Shown here: positions 10,175 to 33,254 of the stretch, piece by piece
How positions within the stretch are numbered: the stretch's first letter is position 1
Layout: every line of letters begins with the position of its first letter
Assembly: GCA_015490995.1 (NCBI GenBank)
Contig: WFWT01000030.1
Location: 1 to 33,254 of the forward strand
DNA: 33,254 nt
Reading direction: 5' to 3'
Source: Anaerolineae bacterium
Lineage (GTDB): Bacteria > Chloroflexota > Anaerolineae > JAADDB01
Notes under the pieces: model-generated
What the model was told of the DNA's origin: nothing
What the model saw: the letters and a program-made list of their open reading frames with translations, nothing else
Databases searched by the model: none
Position numbers and translations under genes: made by a program

Positions 10175-11239
10175 TCACGGTGGGATCAGCACCCCGGCAT
10201 CAGGTGGAAAGTGGACATAAACACGGTCTCCTGGCCGCAGTGATGCGGCAGCATCGGCCGGAAGATCTACCTTTAAGGTCTGGCTTTCATCTGTGCGTAA
10301 GGTAACGCGCACCGTGGCTCCCAGGAACGTCAAGGGTTCCACCCGAGCGGGGATACGATTGTGGCCTGTCGGGATCTCTGCTTCCGCCGCAACGATGCCC
10401 ATAAATTCCGGGCGCACGCCCAAGATCGCCCGCGCGCCCGCAGACCACGAGGTCGCGTCTTCCACCTGAAAGCTGTATCGCCCCCAGCGGAACGTCCGGT
10501 CAGGCCCCACTTCCCCTTCAAACAGGTTCATGGTGCCCACAAAGGTGGCCACAAAAAGGGTTTGAGGCCGCGCGTACACTTCGGCGGGAGAACCAACCTG
10601 CTGGATCACGCCCTGATTCATCACCACTACCCGGTCCGAAATGGAAAGCGCCTCCTCCTGGTCATGCGTCACATAGATGGCCGTAATGCCCAACTGGGTT
10701 TGAATGCGCCGGATCTCCACTCGCAGTTCCTCGCGAATCTTGGCGTCCAACGCGGAGAGAGGTTCATCCAAGAGCAGAATCTTAGGCTCCTTGGCCAGCG
10801 CACGAGCTAGGGCTACCCGCTGCTGCTGTCCACCGGACAGCTGGCGGGGATACCGGTCTTCCAGCCCCTCCAGGTGCACCAGCTCAAGAAGCTCACGCAC
10901 CCGCCGTCGTTGCTGCTCTTTCGGCCGCTTTTGAATCATCAGTGGAAACGCGATATTTTGGGCCACCGTCATGTTGGGAAAAAGGGCATAGGCCTGAAAC
11001 ACCATACCTACATCCCGGCGCTCCGGTGGGACGTCGTTGACCCGCTGGCCGTACAGGATGATGTCCCCCTCATCGGGACGCTCAAACCCGGCAATACACC
11101 GCAGAATGGTGGTCTTCCCGCACCCTGAAGGGCCGAGCAAGGAGACGAATTCTCCCTCATTAACCGTTAAATTGAAATTCTGCACGGCCACCACAGAGCC
11201 AAAGCGTTTGGTGACATTGACCAACCGTAGCGACTCCAT
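10175..11239 (-). CDS. ABC importer ATPase, CysA/PotA/UgpC type with TOBE domain
   Basis: The cytoplasmic ATP-hydrolysing subunit, 354 aa. Motifs in order: Walker [10 protein letters not shown] (residues 36-44), Q-loop [12 protein letters not shown] signature [15 protein letters not shown], Walker [13 protein letters not shown], and H-loop THDQEEAL. About residues 240-354 form a C-terminal TOBE/MalK-type regulatory region ([25 protein letters not shown]). The tail is the right length for importers of the polyamine/iron/sugar group. It is the only importer ATPase in the window and lies upstream of two complete permease pairs. It probably serves the adjacent pair (7187-8834). It may also power the CUT1 pair (4029-5775), as shared ATPases such as MsiK do elsewhere; this is an inference. 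A GTGGAG ribosome-binding site lies 8 nt before the ATG. Confidence 0.95.
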
Positions 11240-11287: not shown

Positions 11288-12088
11288 CTAATCCATCCAC
11301 GCGCCCCCGTTGACGTTAATGGCCTCACCGGTAATGAAGTCGGACAGGGAAGACGCCAGGAAGACCACCACCTTGGCCACGTCCTCTGGCGTTTCGATGC
11401 GCCCCAGCGGGGTATCCTGGACGTACAGCTCCCGCACCGCCTCTGGCGTCGTGCCCCGCAGCTCTGCTTCCCAGCGCAACTCCCGCTCCTGCATGCCGGT
11501 GGCCACGTACCCGGGACATACCGCGTTCACCGTGATCTTGTAAGGTGCCAGCTCTCCGGCCATTGCCTGCGTTAACCCCACCACTGCGAACTTGGACGCC
11601 ACGTAATGGGCCAGGAAGGGCGCGTTGCCACGTTTGCCCGCCATCGACGCAATGTTGATGATCTTTCCCCGCAGTTCACCGCCCTGCATGAAGTCCTGTT
11701 GCATCATCACGCGCGCCACGACTTGGGAACAGAGGAAGGTGCCCTTGGCGTTCACGTTCATGTTGAAGTCCCAATCCTCTTCTGTGAGCTCCCAGAACCG
11801 GTTCATGGTGGACACGCCCGCATTGTTTACCCAAATGTCCAGCCGGCGCCCCCATTCCCGAATGGCGTCCACCACCTGCACGATGTGATCTCGGCGGGTG
11901 ACATCCAGTCGCCAAGCCCGAGCAACGCCGCCGGCCGCCTCTATCAGGCGCACCGTCTCCTGTGCGCCTTCCTCGTTAATGTCCGTCACCGCTACCCGTG
12001 CACCCTCCGCGGCCAGGGCCTGCGCAATCGCCCGCCCAATTCCGGCCCCTGCACCCGTCACCCCCGCCACACGACCCGCCAGTAACAT
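11288..12088 (-). CDS. SDR-family NAD(P)-dependent oxidoreductase
   Basis: A classical short-chain dehydrogenase/reductase, 266 aa, predicted to interconvert an alcohol and a ketone on a sugar or polyol. The cofactor-binding motif TGAGAGIG is at about residues 11-18, the structural NNAG motif is present, and the catalytic Ser-Tyr-Lys set is visible (IINIAS; YVASK). Asp at the end of the second strand (VAVTDIN) suggests NAD rather than NADP. The C-terminal GEAINVNGGAWMD is typical of sugar-alcohol and glucose-dehydrogenase-like members. I chose the ATG at 12088 because GGAGG (12097-12101) lies 8 nt upstream; a GTG at 12097 overlaps that site. It sits between the FGGY kinase and the ABC ATPase with gaps of 64 and 48 bp, so it is probably in the same transcript. 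Confidence 0.93.
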   Translation of the reverse strand: MLLAGRVAGVTGAGAGIGRAIAQALAAEGARVAVTDINEEGAQETVRLIEAAGGVARAWRLDVTRRDHIVQVVDAIREWGRRLDIWVNNAGVSTMNRFWELTEEDWDFNMNVNAKGTFLCSQVVARVMMQQDFMQGGELRGKIINIASMAGKRGNAPFLAHYVASKFAVVGLTQAMAGELAPYKITVNAVCPGYVATGMQERELRWEAELRGTTPEAVRELYVQDTPLGRIETPEDVAKVVVFLASSLSDFITGEAINVNGGAWMD

Positions 12089-23614: not shown

Positions 23615-26600
23615 ATGGGGGAAGGCGCTGTGCACAGGATTTCACGGCTATGCGGCCGGCATTCGGCCTGGCTTCTGAGCGCCCTATTCCTGATCACCCT
23701 CGGTACCGTGGTCTTGGCACTGGCCCGCGGCCTCCGCCCTCAACCCCAGCACACCATTTTCGTGGGAGTAGGAGGCAGTGCTCTCGTGGCTGCCCTGGTC
23801 GCGACGGGGGTATACGCCCGTTCCCTTGCCCCATCACCCTTACCGACCACCTCCCGCTGGTCACCCCGAGTTACGCTCATCGCCCTCTTCGCCCTTCTCC
23901 TGATAGCCGCGATCACCCGGGGGTATCGCATCAACGCTATACCGGCCGGCCTCTGGCTTGACGAGACCGACATCGCCTTGCAGGCGTTGGAGATTCTTGC
24001 GGGCGCGCGGCCTATGCCGTGGGAGGTGGCCCGTCTTGAGGTACCTTGGCTTTACCACTATTATGTAGCCCTCTTTTATAAACTCTTCGGCCCAGGTTAT
24101 CTCACCGTCAAGATGCCTCATCTCCTCATCAGCGTCCTCACCGCCGGTGCCCTGTTTCTCCTGGCTCGCGAGTGGCTCTCACCTTGGGGCGCGGTGCTCA
24201 CGACCGTTGCCTGGAGCACAATGCGGTGGTCACTGAACATGAGCCGATGGGGCCACGCCAATACCCTGACCCTCTTTTGGTATTGTACTGTGCTCTGGCT
24301 CCTGTGGCGAGGTCTCCACTCGAGACACACGCGCTGGTGGGTGCTCACCGGCCTTGCACTAGGACTCAGCCAGTACGGATATCAGGCCACCCGCTCCCTG
24401 GTAGTGGTGGTGGCTTTATTTCTCGCCTATTGGTTGTGGACCCTTTCCCCTCCCCGGAGACAAGTGCTACGACGGGTAGGTCTTCTCTGGGGCGCCTTCA
24501 CGCTGGTGTACGCGCCCTTGGCCCTCACTTATCTGGCCGAGCCGAACCTTTTCCTGGAACGGTCACGGGCCATTAGCATCTTTAATCCGCTTTTCACTCC
24601 CGACCCGTGGGTTGCGTTGAGGAGCAACGTGGGCAAATACTTGGGCATGCTACACTACGTGGGAGACCCCAATGGCCGCCACAACATCCCCGGATGGCCT
24701 ATGCTCGATCCCATCCTGGGAGGGTTGGTGGTGCTAGGGTTGGGCCGCGTGCTGGCCCACCCTCGACGTCCGGCGCACGTCGCGCTACTATTATGGCTTG
24801 CCGCGTTTCTAACGGCCGGCATTCTCACCACCGAAGCCCCCAACACTTTTCGCGTGTACGGCCTTACCCCTGCCCTTGCCCTGCTGGCAGGCTTGGGGCT
24901 GGATACGCTGGCTGCCGCGCCGTTCCTACCACGGCCCTGGCCTATTCTCACCACACTGATCGTGCTGGCCGCGGCAGTGAACCTCTACGTGTTCTTCGGT
25001 GTCCAGGCCCAGCACCCGGCAGTGGTAGGGCAGTTTAACGTGGGGCCGACTCGCGTGGGGCAGTATATCGCCACCCTTCCCGGCGAGGTGACCGTCTACC
25101 TGGACAGAGAATTTTGGGGATTTTCTCCCATCAAGGTCATTAACCCGGGCCGAGCGCTGACCCGTCTGAAAACGCCTGAGCACGTCCCGCCGCCCCCTGA
25201 TGAAACCGGCCCGGTCGTGTATGTGCTGGGCCGATATGGACACCGCCTCCTACCATGGCTACGTCAGTTGTACCCGGAGGCAAAGGTGTACCTCGATGTA
25301 ATGCCTCCTTACGGGTACGTGTTTACCGCGGTTTACATCGACGAAGCGCTTGTGAGCCGCCGTGGCCTCCTCGGCAGAAAGCGCACGCCGGCGGGCCAAG
25401 CTCGAGAGACCGTGGTCACGCTCGCCGCTTTGCCCCAAGATGTGGAGCCGATCACCTTGCGTGGCGGCCTGTACGTACCCAGGCCGGGAACGTACGAGCT
25501 ACGGGTGACAGGCGTGCAAAGGGCACTTATCCGTTTCCCGGGGCAAGCCCTGTCCTTGCCCTCAGCCCAACCCGCTGTCGTCACGCTACCCGAAGGTCTG
25601 GTCCCCGTACAGTTAACCCTGACCCTCTCCCCGGACGCCCGCCCCGCCTTTTTCTGGCGCGGCCCTCACACCCGCGAGTGGACCCCCATCCCCGACCGCG
25701 CGTGGTACCCGCTAGATATCCCGCTCGGCGGCCTGTTGGCCCTCTGGTACGAAGGGGGTGGCTTTCGCACCCCGCCGGTCCGAATTACCCACGCGAGCAC
25801 GTTGTACGCGGATAACGCAGGCGATCTGGCCACCGCGGCCATGCGCTGGATCGGCCAGATCCGAATTGAACAGGAAGGCACATATCGGTTCGGCCTTGCC
25901 TCTGATGACGGCTCCCGGCTCTGGATTGATGACCGCCTGGTGGTAGACAACTGGGGACTTCACCCGACCCGCTGGGTGGAAGGCGAGATACGACTCACTC
26001 CAGGGTGGCACACCGTGCGCATCGACTACGTGGACAACGGCGGCGCTTACTGGTTTGAGTGGCGATGGGTTCCTCCCGACGGTGTACCTCAACGGGTACC
26101 GGCCCGTCTCCTGCGATGGACACCCGCGGACGTACAACACGCACTCCGCCCCCCGCCAGACCCACCCCCCGTCCTCCGAGTGGTCGACACGACCGGTCAG
26201 GTGATAGATACGGTGCCGGTGGCCGCGTACGAACTGCAAGATCCCCGCTTTAACCGACCGGTAGGTGACGCGAACTTTCAGGGGTGGCCAATGAAGGTGA
26301 ACAACCAGATGTACGACCGGGGGATAGGCGTTTACGGGCCAGGTGAGTTGCGCTTCCGACTAAACGGCCGGTACCGTCGCTTTCGGGGAATGGTGGGTAT
26401 CGACCAGGACACGTACGGCGACGCGCACACCCAGGTCCAGATTTGGGGGGATGACCGTCTCTTGTGGGACAGTGGCCTCCTCCGAAAGTGGGACCCTGTC
26501 CGATTCTTTGAGGTGGACGTGACCGGGGTACAGGTCCTCATCCTGCGCCAGATTGAAGCCGGGCATTTTGAAGGCCGTGGGGACGGCGTGGATTGGATCG

Positions 26601-26620
26601 ACCCGGTCCTTGTGCCATAA
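23615..26620 (+). CDS. GT39-like membrane glycosyltransferase with C-terminal PA14 and NPCBM modules
   Basis: A 1001-aa protein in three parts. Residues 15-510 are a GT-C membrane domain of the PMT/ArnT type with about 11-13 transmembrane segments; the first large extracytoplasmic loop carries the catalytic-type Asp-Glu pair (GLWLDETD, D116/E117), and ARLEVPWLYHYYVALFYKLFG and SRWGHANTLTLF are typical family segments. Such enzymes transfer a sugar from a polyprenyl-phosphate donor. About 600-700 is a beta-rich linker. About 725-840 is a PA14 module (GTYRFGLASDDGSRLWIDDRLVVDNW), and about 855-1000 an NPCBM module (DRGIGVYGPGELRFRLNG; DVTGVQVLILRQIEAG), both predicted carbohydrate-binding and outside the cell. 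The ATG at 23615 has only a weak ribosome-binding site; a GTG at 23630 is an alternative. A TACAAT at 23589-23594 may be its -10. Confidence 0.9.
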   Translation: MGEGAVHRISRLCGRHSAWLLSALFLITLGTVVLALARGLRPQPQHTIFVGVGGSALVAALVATGVYARSLAPSPLPTTSRWSPRVTLIALFALLLIAAITRGYRINAIPAGLWLDETDIALQALEILAGARPMPWEVARLEVPWLYHYYVALFYKLFGPGYLTVKMPHLLISVLTAGALFLLAREWLSPWGAVLTTVAWSTMRWSLNMSRWGHANTLTLFWYCTVLWLLWRGLHSRHTRWWVLTGLALGLSQYGYQATRSLVVVVALFLAYWLWTLSPPRRQVLRRVGLLWGAFTLVYAPLALTYLAEPNLFLERSRAISIFNPLFTPDPWVALRSNVGKYLGMLHYVGDPNGRHNIPGWPMLDPILGGLVVLGLGRVLAHPRRPAHVALLLWLAAFLTAGILTTEAPNTFRVYGLTPALALLAGLGLDTLAAAPFLPRPWPILTTLIVLAAAVNLYVFFGVQAQHPAVVGQFNVGPTRVGQYIATLPGEVTVYLDREFWGFSPIKVINPGRALTRLKTPEHVPPPPDETGPVVYVLGRYGHRLLPWLRQLYPEAKVYLDVMPPYGYVFTAVYIDEALVSRRGLLGRKRTPAGQARETVVTLAALPQDVEPITLRGGLYVPRPGTYELRVTGVQRALIRFPGQALSLPSAQPAVVTLPEGLVPVQLTLTLSPDARPAFFWRGPHTREWTPIPDRAWYPLDIPLGGLLALWYEGGGFRTPPVRITHASTLYADNAGDLATAAMRWIGQIRIEQEGTYRFGLASDDGSRLWIDDRLVVDNWGLHPTRWVEGEIRLTPGWHTVRIDYVDNGGAYWFEWRWVPPDGVPQRVPARLLRWTPADVQHALRPPPDPPPVLRVVDTTGQVIDTVPVAAYELQDPRFNRPVGDANFQGWPMKVNNQMYDRGIGVYGPGELRFRLNGRYRRFRGMVGIDQDTYGDAHTQVQIWGDDRLLWDSGLLRKWDPVRFFEVDVTGVQVLILRQIEAGHFEGRGDGVDWIDPVLVP

Positions 26621-26698: not shown

Positions 26699-29600
26699 TT
26701 AGGGCCGATGCACCGCCGGCAAGAAGAAACGGTGCACGGGAACCGGCGTCGGTGTGAGTGTTGGCGTAGGCGTGGGTGTCGGTGTCAGGGTAGCGGTCGG
26801 CGTCGGTGTGGGGGTTGGAGTTGGCGCCGGTGTGGGCGTAACCGGCAAGGGGAGCAACGTGTACCGCACCACGAGTTTCGGACGGAGGTCCGGGTTTTGT
26901 TTGTACTCCGACGAGGGGAGCCGGTATTCCACACTCCCTTCGTCCGCCCGCAACATGACACCGAAGTTGGCCGCCGGATTCTCGACCCACGCCTGAACCA
27001 TGCCCGGAATCCTCCAGGTAACATCCACGAAGGAACGAGGAATCACCTGTGTATCCTCCGGTGAGGTTTCGCGGTCCGATGGTCCGTTTGCGCCCGGCCG
27101 TTCCCAACGGACATCTCCCCCGTCAGCACCCTGGCTGGCCACGTACCAGGTAACCGTCTCTGGGTCCCAGGGACGGAGAAGGCGATACGCGCCCACGGTA
27201 AGAGGTGTGGTGCAGGGGAGGTACGGACAGGTCCCTGAGCGCAAGGTAAGCTCCGCGTCTGTGATCTGCACAGTGGGTGGTAGCAAGCTCAGGTCGAACC
27301 AGAACAGAATGGACTTCACGTCAAATTGTCGGGTCGCCTTCAACCGCAGCCAGGGCAGAGGCCCAATGGGCGGCGCCGTTTCATCACCTTGGTTGTAATT
27401 CTCGTCGGGCAAGTAGCGGTTGATGTACGTATCCACCATCCCTTCCCCCTGGAAGACCAGGGTATTGCCTACTATCTTAACTTGAGCGAACTCCGCGGAG
27501 GGGGTGGTGTAATCCTCGGAATCGGCCACCAGGAGGGTCTCAGGAAGGGCCGTCCCGTCGTTGTCCTGGAAGGCCAAGCTCAGGCCAACGGTACGTCCAT
27601 CGGCCAGGGGGAGCCCCAGGACGTCGTTAGGAAGGTAAATTTCCACGCTGTAGCCGTCGGTCAGAGAGCTCACTCCCACGGCGACGTCACTTGTGGGCAG
27701 CGCGTTCTCCCACACCTGTGCGTCTAAGGTGATGGTGTAAACCCGATCGCCCACGCCACCACCCTGCCCGTCCCCCTCCCCGTCCAGGCCGAGGATCACA
27801 GCGTCGCCCAGCAAGGGGTTGTCCGGGGTGGTAAGGCGTTCGTCCCACACCCGGATGCCCAGGTACAGGCCGTCCGGGTCCCACAACGCGCGCGCTTGAG
27901 CCTGCAGGTCGGTATCTCCGGAGGGGGCCTCGCCCAGCACCAGATCAGCCGAACGGGCAGTAACGGTGATCGCCGCGGGTACAGGCCAGTCTCCCAGGAA
28001 CCCATCCACGCTTAACGGCGCAGCCAGTTGAAGAGCGGTCAGTGTATTGGGAGGGCCGGCATACCCGAGGATCACCCCTCCCGGGCCGACCGCCCAGGCC
28101 GCACCCCCCTCCACCGCATCCACCGCGTAGAGGGCAGGAATGTCCGGGAAGCGTTCTACCGTCCACGTGCGTCCCCCATCGCTGGTTCGGCCCACCACAG
28201 CCCCATCATACGGGTCTACCGGCAGGAAAAGGTCGCACGCTTCTCCATCCCGCTGCTCTTCACAGAGCCCACCTGCCAGGTATCCTTCCCGCGCAGAGAT
28301 GAAGTCCACGTCGAAGATGTCGGTTAAGGCCAGCTGGGGATCCAGGGGGAGAAGGGTCCAATCTGCTTCGCTTGCCCCGCCCGATTCGGTGAACCAGATA
28401 ATGCCCGTTACCCCCACGGCCCAACCGATGTTCTCGTCCAGGAAGAAGATGTTCCACAGGTGACTGCCCCCGCGACCGGCCTGCAAGAGAATCTTGTTCC
28501 ACGTCTCGCCATTGTCCGGCGTGTAAAGAATGTGCCCGCCGCCACTGCCACGGCCCACCAGCCAGGCACGGGTACCCTGGGTTGCCACACCGTAAATAGG
28601 AATCGCGAAGGAGGGCTTGCTTTTACATCCCGGCTCGTACCAGTTGAAACATCGGTACTGCCAGCTTTGTCCGTAATCGACCGTGTTCCAAACGCGACCA
28701 CTCTGCCCGCCGGCCCACCCAATGCCGTTAGGCTGCAGGTCCACCCGCGTGATCCAGCGGGCTTCAGGCGGGTTCGGTGGCAATCCAATCCACGTCTGTC
28801 CCCCGTCGACCGTGTAAAACACCCGTCCTAACCGGCCCACCACAACGCCACGCTGTGCGTCGGCGAAGTCAATGCCCATCATTTCCAGCACATCCCCTTG
28901 GGCGGGTGGAGGCAACACTTGAGGCCTCCACGTTTGTCCCCCATCCTGCGTGTGCAACACAATACCCCGGTATTCCCCTTCCGGGTTCAGGTCTTGGTTC
29001 ATGAACTTCTGACCCACAACCCACCCTCGTCGCTCGTCCACGAACTTAACATCCCAGAACTCCTGAATACCGCCCCCGGTGGGTTGGGTCCACGTCTGGC
29101 CGCCGTCGTCGGTGCGGATGACCTGCGCGGCCGCCCCCACCGCCCAGACACGACCTTGCAGGTCAACGGTGACCGCGTACAAGTGAGACTGGGCAGCAGG
29201 GGTCACCTCCTTAAACACTCCGGGCGCCTCTTCCCGCAACACCACTCCCTGATTTCCGACCACCCAGGCCAAACCATCCGGCCCAAACGTCACCGCGTTG
29301 AGCTGCACGGTGGTGGGCGAAGACACCGAACGCCACGTTTGTCCCCCATCGGTGGACCGAAGGATCAGCCCACTATCCCCCACCGCATATCCTGTCTGCC
29401 CATCCGGGGTCCACGCGATGCCCCGCAACGCGTATCCTCCCGTCCGCACAGTGCGCCAGGTGCGTCCTCCGTCCTGGGTGGTCAGGATCACGCCCTTGTG
29501 CCCGACGGCCCACCCACGGGACGCGTCGACAAACCACACATCATAAAGAGGAGTCGTCACGCCGGACTGACCCTCAACCCAGGTGGCACCCCCGTCCACG

Positions 29601-30121
29601 GTGTAGAGCACCAGCCCTCCTTCACCCACCACCACGCCACGGGTAACGTCGGTAAACCAAAGGGCATACAGATCACGGGTGGTACCGGTCCCTTGGGCAC
29701 GCCAGGTGCGCCCACCATTCGTCGTGTGCAATACGGTCCCCCGGGTCCCGACCAGCCATCCATGGGTCTCGTTCACGAACATTGCATCAGCAATGTCCTC
29801 TTCAGTTACTTGCTTGTAACGCCACCACACACCACCGTCACGCGAGCGGTACGTCGTCCCCTTGTTGCCGAAGATAAACACCTCCTGCTCGTTGAGAACC
29901 GTCACTGCATGCAGATCCTGATCGGCACGCCACTGCACCTTCCAGGCGTGGACAGGAGTAGCACTCACACGAGCAGCGACGGTTGCCCCTGAATTCGCTA
30001 CCGCAGGATGCGCGGCCGAAACGGTGGACAAAAGAAACCACCCTGCACCCAACAGAAGCGCAAACATGCTCCCCACCATCAACACATACCACTTCACCGA
30101 TCGTCTACTCCTGATCCGCAT
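26699..30121 (-). CDS. Secreted Ycf48/BNR-repeat beta-propeller protein with CBM9-like and DNRLRE-like modules and a Thr-Pro tail
   Basis: A large exported protein of 1140 aa. The N-terminus (MRIRSRRSVKWYVL then a hydrophobic core, with a VSA-A site near residue 37) is a signal peptide. Residues about 60-740 hold 12-13 repeats of the D-GG-TW type (for example NGGRTWR, DGGQTWR, DGGQTWI) spaced 40-60 residues, matching Ycf48/BNR-like propeller blades. About 750-920 is a CBM9/DOMON-like domain (LSVDGFLGDWPVPAAITV; LYLGIRVWDERLTTPDN). About 930-1090 is DNRLRE-like (VDTYINRYLPDENYNQGDE; SILFWFDLSLLP; RPKLVVRYTL). A Thr-Pro stretch of 35 residues then precedes the tail HRFFLPAVHRP. I chose the ATG at 30121 (GGAGG 5 nt upstream) over the in-frame codon at 30175. 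Function is unknown; surface adhesion or polymer binding is plausible. Confidence 0.88.
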   Translation of the reverse strand: MRIRSRRSVKWYVLMVGSMFALLLGAGWFLLSTVSAAHPAVANSGATVAARVSATPVHAWKVQWRADQDLHAVTVLNEQEVFIFGNKGTTYRSRDGGVWWRYKQVTEEDIADAMFVNETHGWLVGTRGTVLHTTNGGRTWRAQGTGTTRDLYALWFTDVTRGVVVGEGGLVLYTVDGGATWVEGQSGVTTPLYDVWFVDASRGWAVGHKGVILTTQDGGRTWRTVRTGGYALRGIAWTPDGQTGYAVGDSGLILRSTDGGQTWRSVSSPTTVQLNAVTFGPDGLAWVVGNQGVVLREEAPGVFKEVTPAAQSHLYAVTVDLQGRVWAVGAAAQVIRTDDGGQTWTQPTGGGIQEFWDVKFVDERRGWVVGQKFMNQDLNPEGEYRGIVLHTQDGGQTWRPQVLPPPAQGDVLEMMGIDFADAQRGVVVGRLGRVFYTVDGGQTWIGLPPNPPEARWITRVDLQPNGIGWAGGQSGRVWNTVDYGQSWQYRCFNWYEPGCKSKPSFAIPIYGVATQGTRAWLVGRGSGGGHILYTPDNGETWNKILLQAGRGGSHLWNIFFLDENIGWAVGVTGIIWFTESGGASEADWTLLPLDPQLALTDIFDVDFISAREGYLAGGLCEEQRDGEACDLFLPVDPYDGAVVGRTSDGGRTWTVERFPDIPALYAVDAVEGGAAWAVGPGGVILGYAGPPNTLTALQLAAPLSVDGFLGDWPVPAAITVTARSADLVLGEAPSGDTDLQAQARALWDPDGLYLGIRVWDERLTTPDNPLLGDAVILGLDGEGDGQGGGVGDRVYTITLDAQVWENALPTSDVAVGVSSLTDGYSVEIYLPNDVLGLPLADGRTVGLSLAFQDNDGTALPETLLVADSEDYTTPSAEFAQVKIVGNTLVFQGEGMVDTYINRYLPDENYNQGDETAPPIGPLPWLRLKATRQFDVKSILFWFDLSLLPPTVQITDAELTLRSGTCPYLPCTTPLTVGAYRLLRPWDPETVTWYVASQGADGGDVRWERPGANGPSDRETSPEDTQVIPRSFVDVTWRIPGMVQAWVENPAANFGVMLRADEGSVEYRLPSSEYKQNPDLRPKLVVRYTLLPLPVTPTPAPTPTPTPTPTATLTPTPTPTPTLTPTPVPVHRFFLPAVHRP
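26735..26839 (-). repeat. Thr-Pro coding repeat near the C-terminus of the secreted repeat protein
   Basis: About 105 bp of degenerate hexanucleotide repeats (ACNCCN type on the - strand) encode the alternating Thr-Pro linker. Similar shorter tracts follow the lipobox in both binding lipoproteins (about 6990-7035 and 9955-9985). Such repeats are prone to length change. Confidence 0.85.
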
Positions 30122-30177
30122 ACAGACCTCCCTCTTCTTGGAGCGTTGGGATACCGTGTGCCCATAACCGGACACCG

Positions 30178-30238: not shown

Positions 30239-30613
30239 TTGTCCTCACCGGCCACGCGGTGGACCCCACCAAGCCCTCCCACGCGTAGCCGACTGGCAAA
30301 CTGCACGGTTTTGTCGAGGTGTAATGTTGGCCTAACCCCCCAAAATGGGCAATTTCCCTTTCGTCGAGTGCGTGAACGACCGTTCATCTGGACGGACGGG
30401 GTCCCGGAGACACTTCGTCACTCCGTCAACTTCCAGGGGGACGGTGCCCCCTACTCGTCCCTGCTGTGCCTGCAACCGGGGGCTTCCCTGTAACCTAAAC
30501 AACGGCACTTGCCTTCATCCTTTCCTTCTGCTACCCTACACACCGAGCACAAACCGATACATGCGAGGCGCGCGTCTTCTGGTATCAGCGCCTGAATGTC
30601 GGCACCTAATTTC
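30239..30613. other. Divergent intergenic region without a recognised gene
   Basis: With the leader above, this fills the roughly 490 bp between the divergent secreted-protein and GH13 genes. Short frames are present on both strands but have no ribosome-binding site and no family resemblance. I found no convincing -35/-10 pair in either direction. The promoters of both flanking genes should be here. Confidence 0.5.
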
Positions 30614-33254
30614 ATGGCCCTACCCATTAGCCGAACCGCCCGTCGACGCTACAACTTGGACACCGACCTCCTGCCACACGACCCTCGCACCGCGCGCGTG
30701 ATGGCCCAACGCCTCAACGCGGTGCGTCCGCCCGACAACCCCGCGCGCGGGGGCGAAATCGCGGCCCAGGGGCTGCTGGACACCATCTTTGCCCACGTGG
30801 TGCAGCGTTACGCCCGGCAGGTGAACCCCAACGTCCTCACCGAAGCCCTCACCTGGCTGGAACATCGCCTCGGCCAGGACCCGGTGCGCCGCGTTCTCGC
30901 AACCTTGAGGGACCACTTCCCCGCGGCCGCGAGGGAACCCGAGGCCGCGCTGGTGGACCTCCTCCTCCTCTGGCTGGCCAACGAAAATCCCGCTCGGGCC
31001 GCGTACCGTGACCTCTTCGACGACAGCCCCCTGCGCGCGGACACCGCCTACCTGCGCCTCATCGGAGAACTCCACGCCTTCTTCGACACCCAGCCTTACT
31101 TCGGGCCCGACAACCAGAACCTCATCGACATGCTCAAAACGCCCATCGCGGCCGTGCCCGACTCCATCTACGGCCAGTTGGAATACGTCCGCACCCGCTG
31201 GGGCTACTTGCTGGGCGACCTCCTGCGCGACTTGCTGGTCACGCTGGACGTTCTCAAGGAAGAACAGAAGGCCGCGCCGCCGGGTCCCGGCCCGGTGGAA
31301 GTCGCTACCTACACCGGCCTGGAGGACCTGCCTGAGCGTTACAGCCCGGACCGCGAGTGGATGCCCCGCCTGGTGCTCCTCGCCAAGAACACCTACGTCT
31401 GGCTGGACCAACTTTCCAAGAAGTACGGCCGCCCCATCACCCGGCTGGACCAGATCCCGGACGAGGAACTGGACACCCTGGCCCGCTGGGGCTTCACCGG
31501 CCTGTGGCTCATCGGCGTGTGGGAACGCAGCCCCGCGTCCGCCAAAATCAAGCGCCTCACGGGCAACCCCGACGCCATCGCCTCCGCGTACGCGCTCCTG
31601 GATTACACCATTGCCCGCGACCTGGGCGGCGAGGAAGCCATGAACGACCTCCAGGCCCGCGCCTGGCAGCGGGGCATCCGCATCGCCGCGGACATGGTCC
31701 CCAACCACATGGGCATCGATTCCACCTGGGTCATGGAACACCCGGACTGGTTCATCTCCGTGCCGGAACCCCCGTTCCCCTCGTACACCTTTAACGGCCC
31801 GGACCTCTCCTGGAACCCGCGGGTGGGCATCTACCTGGAGGACCACTACTACGACCGCACCGACGCCGCGGTGGTCTTCAAGCGGGTGGACCGGGAAACG
31901 GGCGACGTGCGCTACATCTACCACGGCAACGACGGCACCTCCACCCCCTGGAACGACACCGCGCAACTGGACTTCCTCAAGCCCGAAGTGCGGGAGGCCG
32001 TCATCCGGACCATCCTCCAGGTCGCCAGGCGCTTCCCCATCATCCGCTTCGACGCGGCCATGGTCCTGGCCAAGATGCACTTCCAGCGCCTGTGGTATCC
32101 CGAGCCGGGCACGGGCGGCGCCATCCCCTCCCGCGCGGAGCACGGCATGACCCGGGCGGAGTTCGACCGCCACATGCCCCGCGAGTTCTGGCGGGAAGTC
32201 GTGGACCGCGTGGCGCAGGAAGCGCCGGACACCTTACTCCTCGCCGAGGCCTTCTGGCTCCTGGAAGGGTACTTCGTGCGCGTTCTGGGGATGCACCGGG
32301 TGTACAACAGCGCGTTCATGCACATGCTGCGGGACGAGAAGAACGCCGAGTTCCGCCGGTTGATCAAGAACACCCTGGAGTTCGACCCCCAAATTCTCAA
32401 GCGGTACGTCAACTTCATGACCAACCCCGACGAGGAGCCCGCGGTGGTCCAGTTCGGCAAGGGGGACAAGTACTTCGGCGTGTGCACGATGCTGGCCACC
32501 CTGCCCGGCTTGCCCATGTTCGGCCACGGCCAGATCGAGGGGTACGCGGAGAAGTACGGCATGGAATTCCGCCGTGCCTACTGGGACGAGCGCCCCGACC
32601 CCGACCTCATCGCCCGCCACGAGCGGGAGATCTTCCCCCTCCTGCGGCGGCGCCACCTGTTCGCGGAGGTGGAGCACTTCGTCCTGTACGACCTCTTCAC
32701 GCCCGAGGGGGTGGTGGACGAGAACGTGTTCGCTTACTCCAACCGCTTTGGCGAGGAGCGGGCCCTGGTGGTGTACCACAACCGGTTTGCGGACACGCGG
32801 GGGTGGATCAAGGACTCGGCCGCGTACGCGGTGAAGGGGCTGGACGGCAGCAAACGGCTGGAGCGGACGACCCTGGGCCGGGCGTTGGCCTTGCCCGACG
32901 ACCCGCGGGCCTTTGTCCTCTTCCGCGACCACGTCACCGACCTCTGGTACATCCGCAACGCCCGCGACCTGCACGAGCGGGGCCTGTACGTGGCGTTAGG
33001 TGCGTACCAATACCACGTCTTCCTCGACTTCCGCGTCGTCTACGACGAGGACGGCACCTGGGCCGCGCTGCACGACCGGCTGGGGGGGCGGGGCGTGGCG
33101 GACATCGAAGCCGAGCGGGCGCGGGTGCGGGAAGACATGGTCGCCGCCGCGCTGGAAGACCTCATCCGCTTTCTGGAAACCGTCCCCTTCGAGGAGATCC
33201 CAACGGTGCTCACCCTCGAACGCGTACCGCCCATCCTGCGGGACGAGGCCTTCC
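30614..33254 (+). CDS. GH13 alpha-amylase-family glycoside hydrolase or transglycosylase, 3'-truncated by the window edge
   Basis: A single open frame of 880 codons runs from 30614 off the right edge. An N-terminal helical region of about 250 residues (RTARRRYNLD...) is followed by the catalytic barrel. GH13 conserved regions are present: region I DMVPNH (D360, H365), region II IIRFDAAMV (nucleophile D480), region III LLLAEAFW (acid/base E545) and region IV MTNPDEEP (D606), where the usual Asn-His-Asp has Pro in place of His. The protein should act on alpha-glucans or related glucosides. No signal peptide is seen, so it is probably cytoplasmic, for instance in glycogen or trehalose metabolism. 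The ATG at 30614 lacks a clear ribosome-binding site; another in-frame ATG at 30596 directly follows a stop and lacks one too. Codons end almost always in G or C, more than elsewhere in the window. Confidence 0.9.
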   Translation, partial: MALPISRTARRRYNLDTDLLPHDPRTARVMAQRLNAVRPPDNPARGGEIAAQGLLDTIFAHVVQRYARQVNPNVLTEALTWLEHRLGQDPVRRVLATLRDHFPAAAREPEAALVDLLLLWLANENPARAAYRDLFDDSPLRADTAYLRLIGELHAFFDTQPYFGPDNQNLIDMLKTPIAAVPDSIYGQLEYVRTRWGYLLGDLLRDLLVTLDVLKEEQKAAPPGPGPVEVATYTGLEDLPERYSPDREWMPRLVLLAKNTYVWLDQLSKKYGRPITRLDQIPDEELDTLARWGFTGLWLIGVWERSPASAKIKRLTGNPDAIASAYALLDYTIARDLGGEEAMNDLQARAWQRGIRIAADMVPNHMGIDSTWVMEHPDWFISVPEPPFPSYTFNGPDLSWNPRVGIYLEDHYYDRTDAAVVFKRVDRETGDVRYIYHGNDGTSTPWNDTAQLDFLKPEVREAVIRTILQVARRFPIIRFDAAMVLAKMHFQRLWYPEPGTGGAIPSRAEHGMTRAEFDRHMPREFWREVVDRVAQEAPDTLLLAEAFWLLEGYFVRVLGMHRVYNSAFMHMLRDEKNAEFRRLIKNTLEFDPQILKRYVNFMTNPDEEPAVVQFGKGDKYFGVCTMLATLPGLPMFGHGQIEGYAEKYGMEFRRAYWDERPDPDLIARHEREIFPLLRRRHLFAEVEHFVLYDLFTPEGVVDENVFAYSNRFGEERALVVYHNRFADTRGWIKDSAAYAVKGLDGSKRLERTTLGRALALPDDPRAFVLFRDHVTDLWYIRNARDLHERGLYVALGAYQYHVFLDFRVVYDEDGTWAALHDRLGGRGVADIEAERARVREDMVAAALEDLIRFLETVPFEEIPTVLTLERVPPILRDEAF

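Follow-up and report, generated by a model that had tools for sequence, protein, structure and literature searches.

Short C-terminal tags carried by many unrelated exported proteins of a single lineage are known from the PEP-CTERM/exosortase, GlyGly-CTERM/rhombosortase and MYXO-CTERM/myxosortase systems. PEP-CTERM and GlyGly-CTERM tags are tripartite, consisting of a motif, a membrane helix and a basic end. The same tripartite plan is given for MYXO-CTERM in part of the published description of that system (PMC11980579). The YLP-type tails considered here resemble all three in being short tags carried by unrelated exported proteins of one lineage and differ from them in having no membrane helix. 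Their class is not undescribed, as NCBIfam already catalogues it under two models, NF050076 (sort_motif_YLP) and NF053834 (ultrashort_CTERM), with the product name 'YLP-box putative sorting motif-containing protein'. The earlier note on this DNA had called the tail a signal that is not characterised, which holds in so far as the catalogued name claims only a 'putative' sorting motif and fails in so far as the class has been modelled. A literature search by the motif letters, rather than by the name 'YLP-box', found no paper testing YLP-box sorting, and judging by titles none of the papers listed for the strings YLPLV or YLPL concerned Chloroflexota.

The window, meaning the whole stretch of DNA analyzed, is 33,254 nucleotides of an Anaerolineae bacterium (GCA_015490995.1, contig WFWT01000030.1). 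The protein of interest is encoded on its minus strand by an open reading frame of 1140 amino acids, from an ATG at 30121 to a stop codon at 26699-26701, with an in-frame GTG upstream at 30175 as a possible earlier start. Its features are as follows.

30017..30121, minus strand: signal-peptide-like N-terminus, about residues 1-35, with a basic start and a hydrophobic helix at 9-29
28052..29956, minus strand: Ycf48/BNR-type propeller region, about residues 56-690 (PF14870, 2.8e-45; PF02012; structural model; Foldseek)
27521..27943, minus strand: CBM9-like domain, residues 727-867 (Pfam CBM9_1, PF06452, 2.6e-7)
26867..27433, minus strand: DNRLRE domain, residues 897-1085 (NCBIfam NF033679, 2.3e-19)
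26735..26836, minus strand: Thr-Pro-rich linker, about residues 1096-1129, read directly
26699..26725, minus strand: C-terminal tail FLPAVHRP and stop codon, YLP-box-like ([YFW][LIV]Px[LIV]), read directly; Pro1135 invariant

The repeats, CBM9 and DNRLRE modules, Thr-Pro stretch and FLPAVHRP end that the earlier note had read from the letters were all borne out by Pfam, NCBIfam and direct reading. Pfam matched PSII_BNR (Ycf48) in six stretches and BNR at 5.1e-13, and 12 Asp-box-like repeats, one of them degenerate, were counted by eye. The N-terminus had a crude signal score of 2.6. In an AlphaFold2 model built from a 10-sequence alignment, with a mean pLDDT of 82.7, residues 9-29 form a helix that fits a signal peptide and the body is folded from about residue 56 to 1097; pLDDT is below 50 over residues 1098-1140, which places both the Thr-Pro stretch and the tail outside the predicted fold. 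Foldseek matched the modelled body to propellers, with a TM-score by target of up to 0.76 for Ycf48 (5ojr) and with tandem GH74 propellers among the best matches. What the body has in common with Ycf48 and GH74 is the Asp-box propeller fold: the protein misses the Ycf48 equivalog cut-off of NF010237 (152.9 versus 326 bits) and shares with Ycf48 the propeller fold alone, and the comparison with GH74 is likewise one of predicted fold. The convergent neighbour (window 23615-26620, plus strand) encodes a 1001-residue PMT_2-type glycosyltransferase with fused C-terminal PA14 and NPCBM domains, and it may be asked whether this putative glycosylator could act on the adjoining Thr-Pro linker. A divergent open frame (30596-33253, plus strand) has a match to an alpha-amylase catalytic domain (1.7e-8).

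The YLP-box models, 10-11 positions long, describe a short aromatic-aliphatic-Pro motif at the very end of exported Chloroflexota proteins. The two surfaced in a loose-threshold scan of the last 60 residues alone and were absent from whole-protein NCBIfam scans at thresholds of 1 and 0.01. Among 91 tails collected in the carrier sample described below, NF050076 matched 64 and NF053834 matched 58. For 74 tail-less exported C-termini the two models were not among the best 25 of 122 families, and each therefore has at most one match in these controls. The window's own tail, scanned over the last 60 residues, matched neither model at E values up to 10. It begins with Phe, has Ala where Leu is usual and a terminal Pro where the basic end would be, and follows a Thr-Pro linker. 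The curated cut-offs are 15 bits for NF050076 and 10 bits for NF053834. A homologue of the window protein (L227, genome G019) passes the second with 12.5 bits and falls under the first with 14.1; the first is passed by L053, a second protein encoded in the window's genome, with 15.7. Because its own tail is unmatched while a homologue and a same-genome protein each pass one of the cut-offs, we file the window protein, on its sequence, as a divergent, Thr-Pro-linked YLP-box-like variant and not as a member by model cut-off. NF050076 matched only two of 19 related tails (15 from the window protein's family and four from the same genome that were chosen for bearing the tail), and three homologues in which a Thr-Pro run precedes a canonical YLPL end (L233, L234 and L235) were missed by the YLP-box models, likely through a composition filter. 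Given this divergent Thr-Pro-linked form, the existing models appear to miss part of the class.

The tail is conserved among homologues of the window protein, which were gathered blind to their C-termini. A hand count of 16 distinct closed ends (loci L220-L249, the window's included, with the identical L241 and L246 counted once) found [YFW][LIV]Px[LIV] near the end in 14. L231 has a variant tail, YRIPFV, and L238, which matches the window protein over the DNRLRE domain only, has none. The sequence ahead of the tail ranges from long Thr-Pro runs to none. Pro1135 is invariant in an alignment of 10 proteins with 31-58% identity to the window protein, and this proline is the sole invariant column in the 19 C-termini mentioned above, four of which had been chosen for their tails. 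That the terminal motif is kept among homologues at this level of identity while the preceding sequence varies argues that the tail of the window protein is not there by chance. One open frame of the same genome (L044, contig 14, 12299-13177) has FLPLLGKN followed by a long Thr-Pro run to the contig end, and the motif may thus also occur ahead of a linker.

The canonical form of the tail, [VI]YLPL[VI]x[KR] followed by a stop codon, recurs across Chloroflexota and is restricted to certain lineages. Genomes were searched at the DNA level for Y-[LF]-P-[LF]-aliphatic-x-[KR-like]-stop, with the reversed pattern as control; because TGG could stand in for the stop codon, the pattern and its control alike pick up some sequences that are not true ends. 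Counts were read by eye and summed over both strands. In two overlapping genome sets, the pattern matched in 193 of 298 genomes of the class (at least nine matches in 13; control sum at most 8) and in 78 of 301 genomes of the phylum (at least nine in 10; control sum at most 4). The top genome, G025, had 73 matches versus 2 for the control, Ca. Viridilinea halotolerans had 31 versus 0 and a Herpetosiphonaceae MAG 14 versus 0. Families f27, f19 and f43, genus g126 of f38 and most families outside the class had zero or nearly zero matches, and the contrast between g126 and its sister genera within f38 was the sharpest observed. A scan of named genomes for the Thr-Pro-linked canonical tail returned 24 stretches, 19 of them with in-frame ends, of which 18 are in Chloroflexota records. 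The remaining in-frame end (L138, 3683-4285) lies in a 0.7-Mb Patescibacteria MAG, possibly through misbinning. Four of the other five stretches, all from other phyla, have no in-frame end, and the fifth (L144), at a contig end, is unsettled. Tail plus stop also occurs in tandem, as three copies 65 bases apart in G577 (contig 32, 21966-22119) and two copies 82 bases apart in G527 (contig 80, 40830-40935), an arrangement suggestive of duplication of the tail-coding end.

The tail is constrained as protein and not as DNA. The 75 strict tails comprise 74 different 24-mers encoding 34 peptides, with synonymous codons freely used, and the residue ahead of Tyr, which the search left unconstrained, is V, I or L in 64 of them. 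A terminator or repeat as the cause was dropped because of this diversity of 24-mers.

Carriers of the tail were sampled from 60 stretches gathered around pattern matches. Tails ended 91 of 516 closed open reading frames, compared with 0.74 expected when the last 12 residues were shuffled, and these 91 fall into 43 homology groups that include a GDSL lipase, a clostripain-like peptidase and an M23 peptidase. By a crude score, a signal-peptide-like start was present on 68 of 79 full-length tail frames versus 74 of 389 others from the same stretches (Fisher p=3e-30). The recurrence of a short tail on exported Chloroflexota proteins, which the earlier note had put forward, was thus confirmed by a test of enrichment. 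Among signal-peptide frames, the more general motif was enriched at the terminus over the interior 29-fold in G129, 47-fold in G533 and 18-fold in the window's genome, figures that rest on three, three and two cases (with one, zero and zero terminal cases on other frames) and on samples that include contigs picked for matches or Thr-Pro runs. Tail proteins are also longer than other exported proteins, with a median of 777 versus 380 residues. A family of 91-111 residues is exported and tailed as well (L164, 5093-5377; L200, 4001-4276; L206, 4530-4811 and 7162-7497), and each of its members adjoins an exported protein without the tail, these partners all belonging to one family.

With the tail so strongly enriched on proteins with signal-peptide-like starts, a sorting or anchoring role, as the earlier note had proposed, is a fair reading for the terminal motif; the Thr-Pro stretch that it had paired with the motif is not in general part of such a signal. 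Among the 91 tails from tail-rich genomes, just three have at least four [ST]P in the 53 residues ahead, and 76 have at most one. In the window protein's own homologues the Thr-Pro stretch is common, being present in most.

Other anchors are rarer on proteins that carry the tail. A lipobox-like site was found in 6 of 68 exported tail proteins versus 19 of 74 exported tail-less ones, and a C-terminal membrane helix in 0 of 68 versus 7 of 74; both contrasts are modest (p=0.014 each), and because of them retention is favoured over release. A choice-of-anchor Q domain, a name that we take to refer to interchangeable anchors, lies within the last 60 residues ahead of the tail in 11 of the 91. In tail-rich genomes the tail ends only one of four closed choice-of-anchor Q proteins, and for that reason the idea that it is one of the alternatives in this group is weak. 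In tail-free genomes such proteins end in SLH (G212), in a membrane helix followed by RR (G222 and G130) or in other domains, a variety in keeping with the name. Two of these ends (L253 in G222 and L274 in G130), with a Thr-Pro linker, Cys, membrane helix and RR, look like another C-terminal sorting signal.

From these observations we infer that the tail is best read as a signal for sorting or surface retention, and to the following course of events for the window protein we give a probability of about 0.6. The protein would be exported by its signal peptide and would fold into its propellers, CBM9 and DNRLRE domains, leaving the flexible Thr-Pro linker to present the terminal F-L-P-A-V-H-R-P, a divergent YLP-box of the Chloroflexota type that would work like the canonical one. 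A putative extracytoplasmic partner would then most likely bind the tail peptide, and this binding would retain the protein at the cell envelope or sort it there. In this way the tail would take the place of the membrane-spanning segment or lipid by which other exported proteins are anchored.

A different role for the same recognition, unlikely but the strongest of the competitors, is that of an export signal that is read, and perhaps cut off, as the protein crosses the outer envelope layers, after which the mature protein is released. Many carriers do resemble releasable enzymes or adhesins, among them the lipase and the two peptidases named above, and the portions of two published studies that bear on this (PMC7332563, PMC13319060) indicate that Chloroflexota envelopes can be multi-layered; the scarcity of other anchors on tail proteins fits anchor replacement instead, and the tail has no known cleavage site or enzyme. 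It is improbable that the tail is purely structural, completing the upstream domain as a final hydrophobic strand or a cap without being recognized in its own right. The motif is strand-like and hydrophobic, and most canonical tails, those 76 with at most one [ST]P ahead, abut a domain directly, whereas in the window protein a linker of about 35 residues parts the tail from the fold, the model leaves the tail disordered, and the same lineage-restricted end occurs on 43 homology groups.

The earlier note had suggested looking for a co-occurring processing enzyme. Sortase (PF04203), exosortase (PF09721) and SLH (PF00395) were profiled in a hand-chosen panel of 30 genomes with at least five tail matches and 30 with none, the window's own genome lying outside it. 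Sortase was found in 28 of the tail-rich and 21 of the tail-free genomes, and not in tail-rich G242 (seven tail matches, nine contigs, 97% complete) or G175. Exosortase was found in 12 of the tail-rich versus 4 of the tail-free genomes; a few families aside, most tail-rich genomes lack it, with none in those tested of f21, f70, f80 and f106. SLH was found in just two of the 60, G212 (51 matches) and G099 (three). None of the three tracks the tail, either as its machinery or as an alternative anchor, and neither enzyme fits the part of processing enzyme. Families recurring around tails, named by impression, were an ABC transporter, a glycosyltransferase and regulators, and no family resembling a dedicated partner was seen among them. 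In G055 (contig 382) an exosortase gene at 10410-11156 and a YLPLVAR tail match at 11673-11696 share a strand, with about 500 bases between them.

That the tail is a sortase or exosortase substrate, a reduced LPXTG- or PEP-CTERM-like signal, is very hard to credit, for although an LP pair before a basic end resembles LPXTG, sortases are frequent in tail-rich genomes and exosortase adjoins one tail match, the motif has no membrane helix after it, FLP opens the last 8 residues of the window protein, which has no LPXTG model among its NCBIfam matches, and the two enzymes are distributed as described above.

Sorting or retention at the envelope by a putative partner may extend beyond the window protein. 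Somewhat short of an even chance, in our estimation, is the wider proposal that the YLP-box and its Thr-Pro-linked form are a single helix-free C-terminal address that would, through such a partner, deliver proteins to the outer envelope layers or attach them there, and that would be distinct from the sortase, exosortase, rhombosortase and myxosortase systems. The envelopes of Chloroflexota are described, in the parts of the literature drawn on here, as layered and in part diderm-like, without BamA or LPS genes, in filamentous members such as Chloroflexus aggregans, Ca. Viridilinea and Litorilinea, and the nature of the layers is unsettled (PMC7332563, PMC13319060). The tail may be linked to these layers, and a short address on dozens of exported proteins per genome would offer a handle on the question of what they are.
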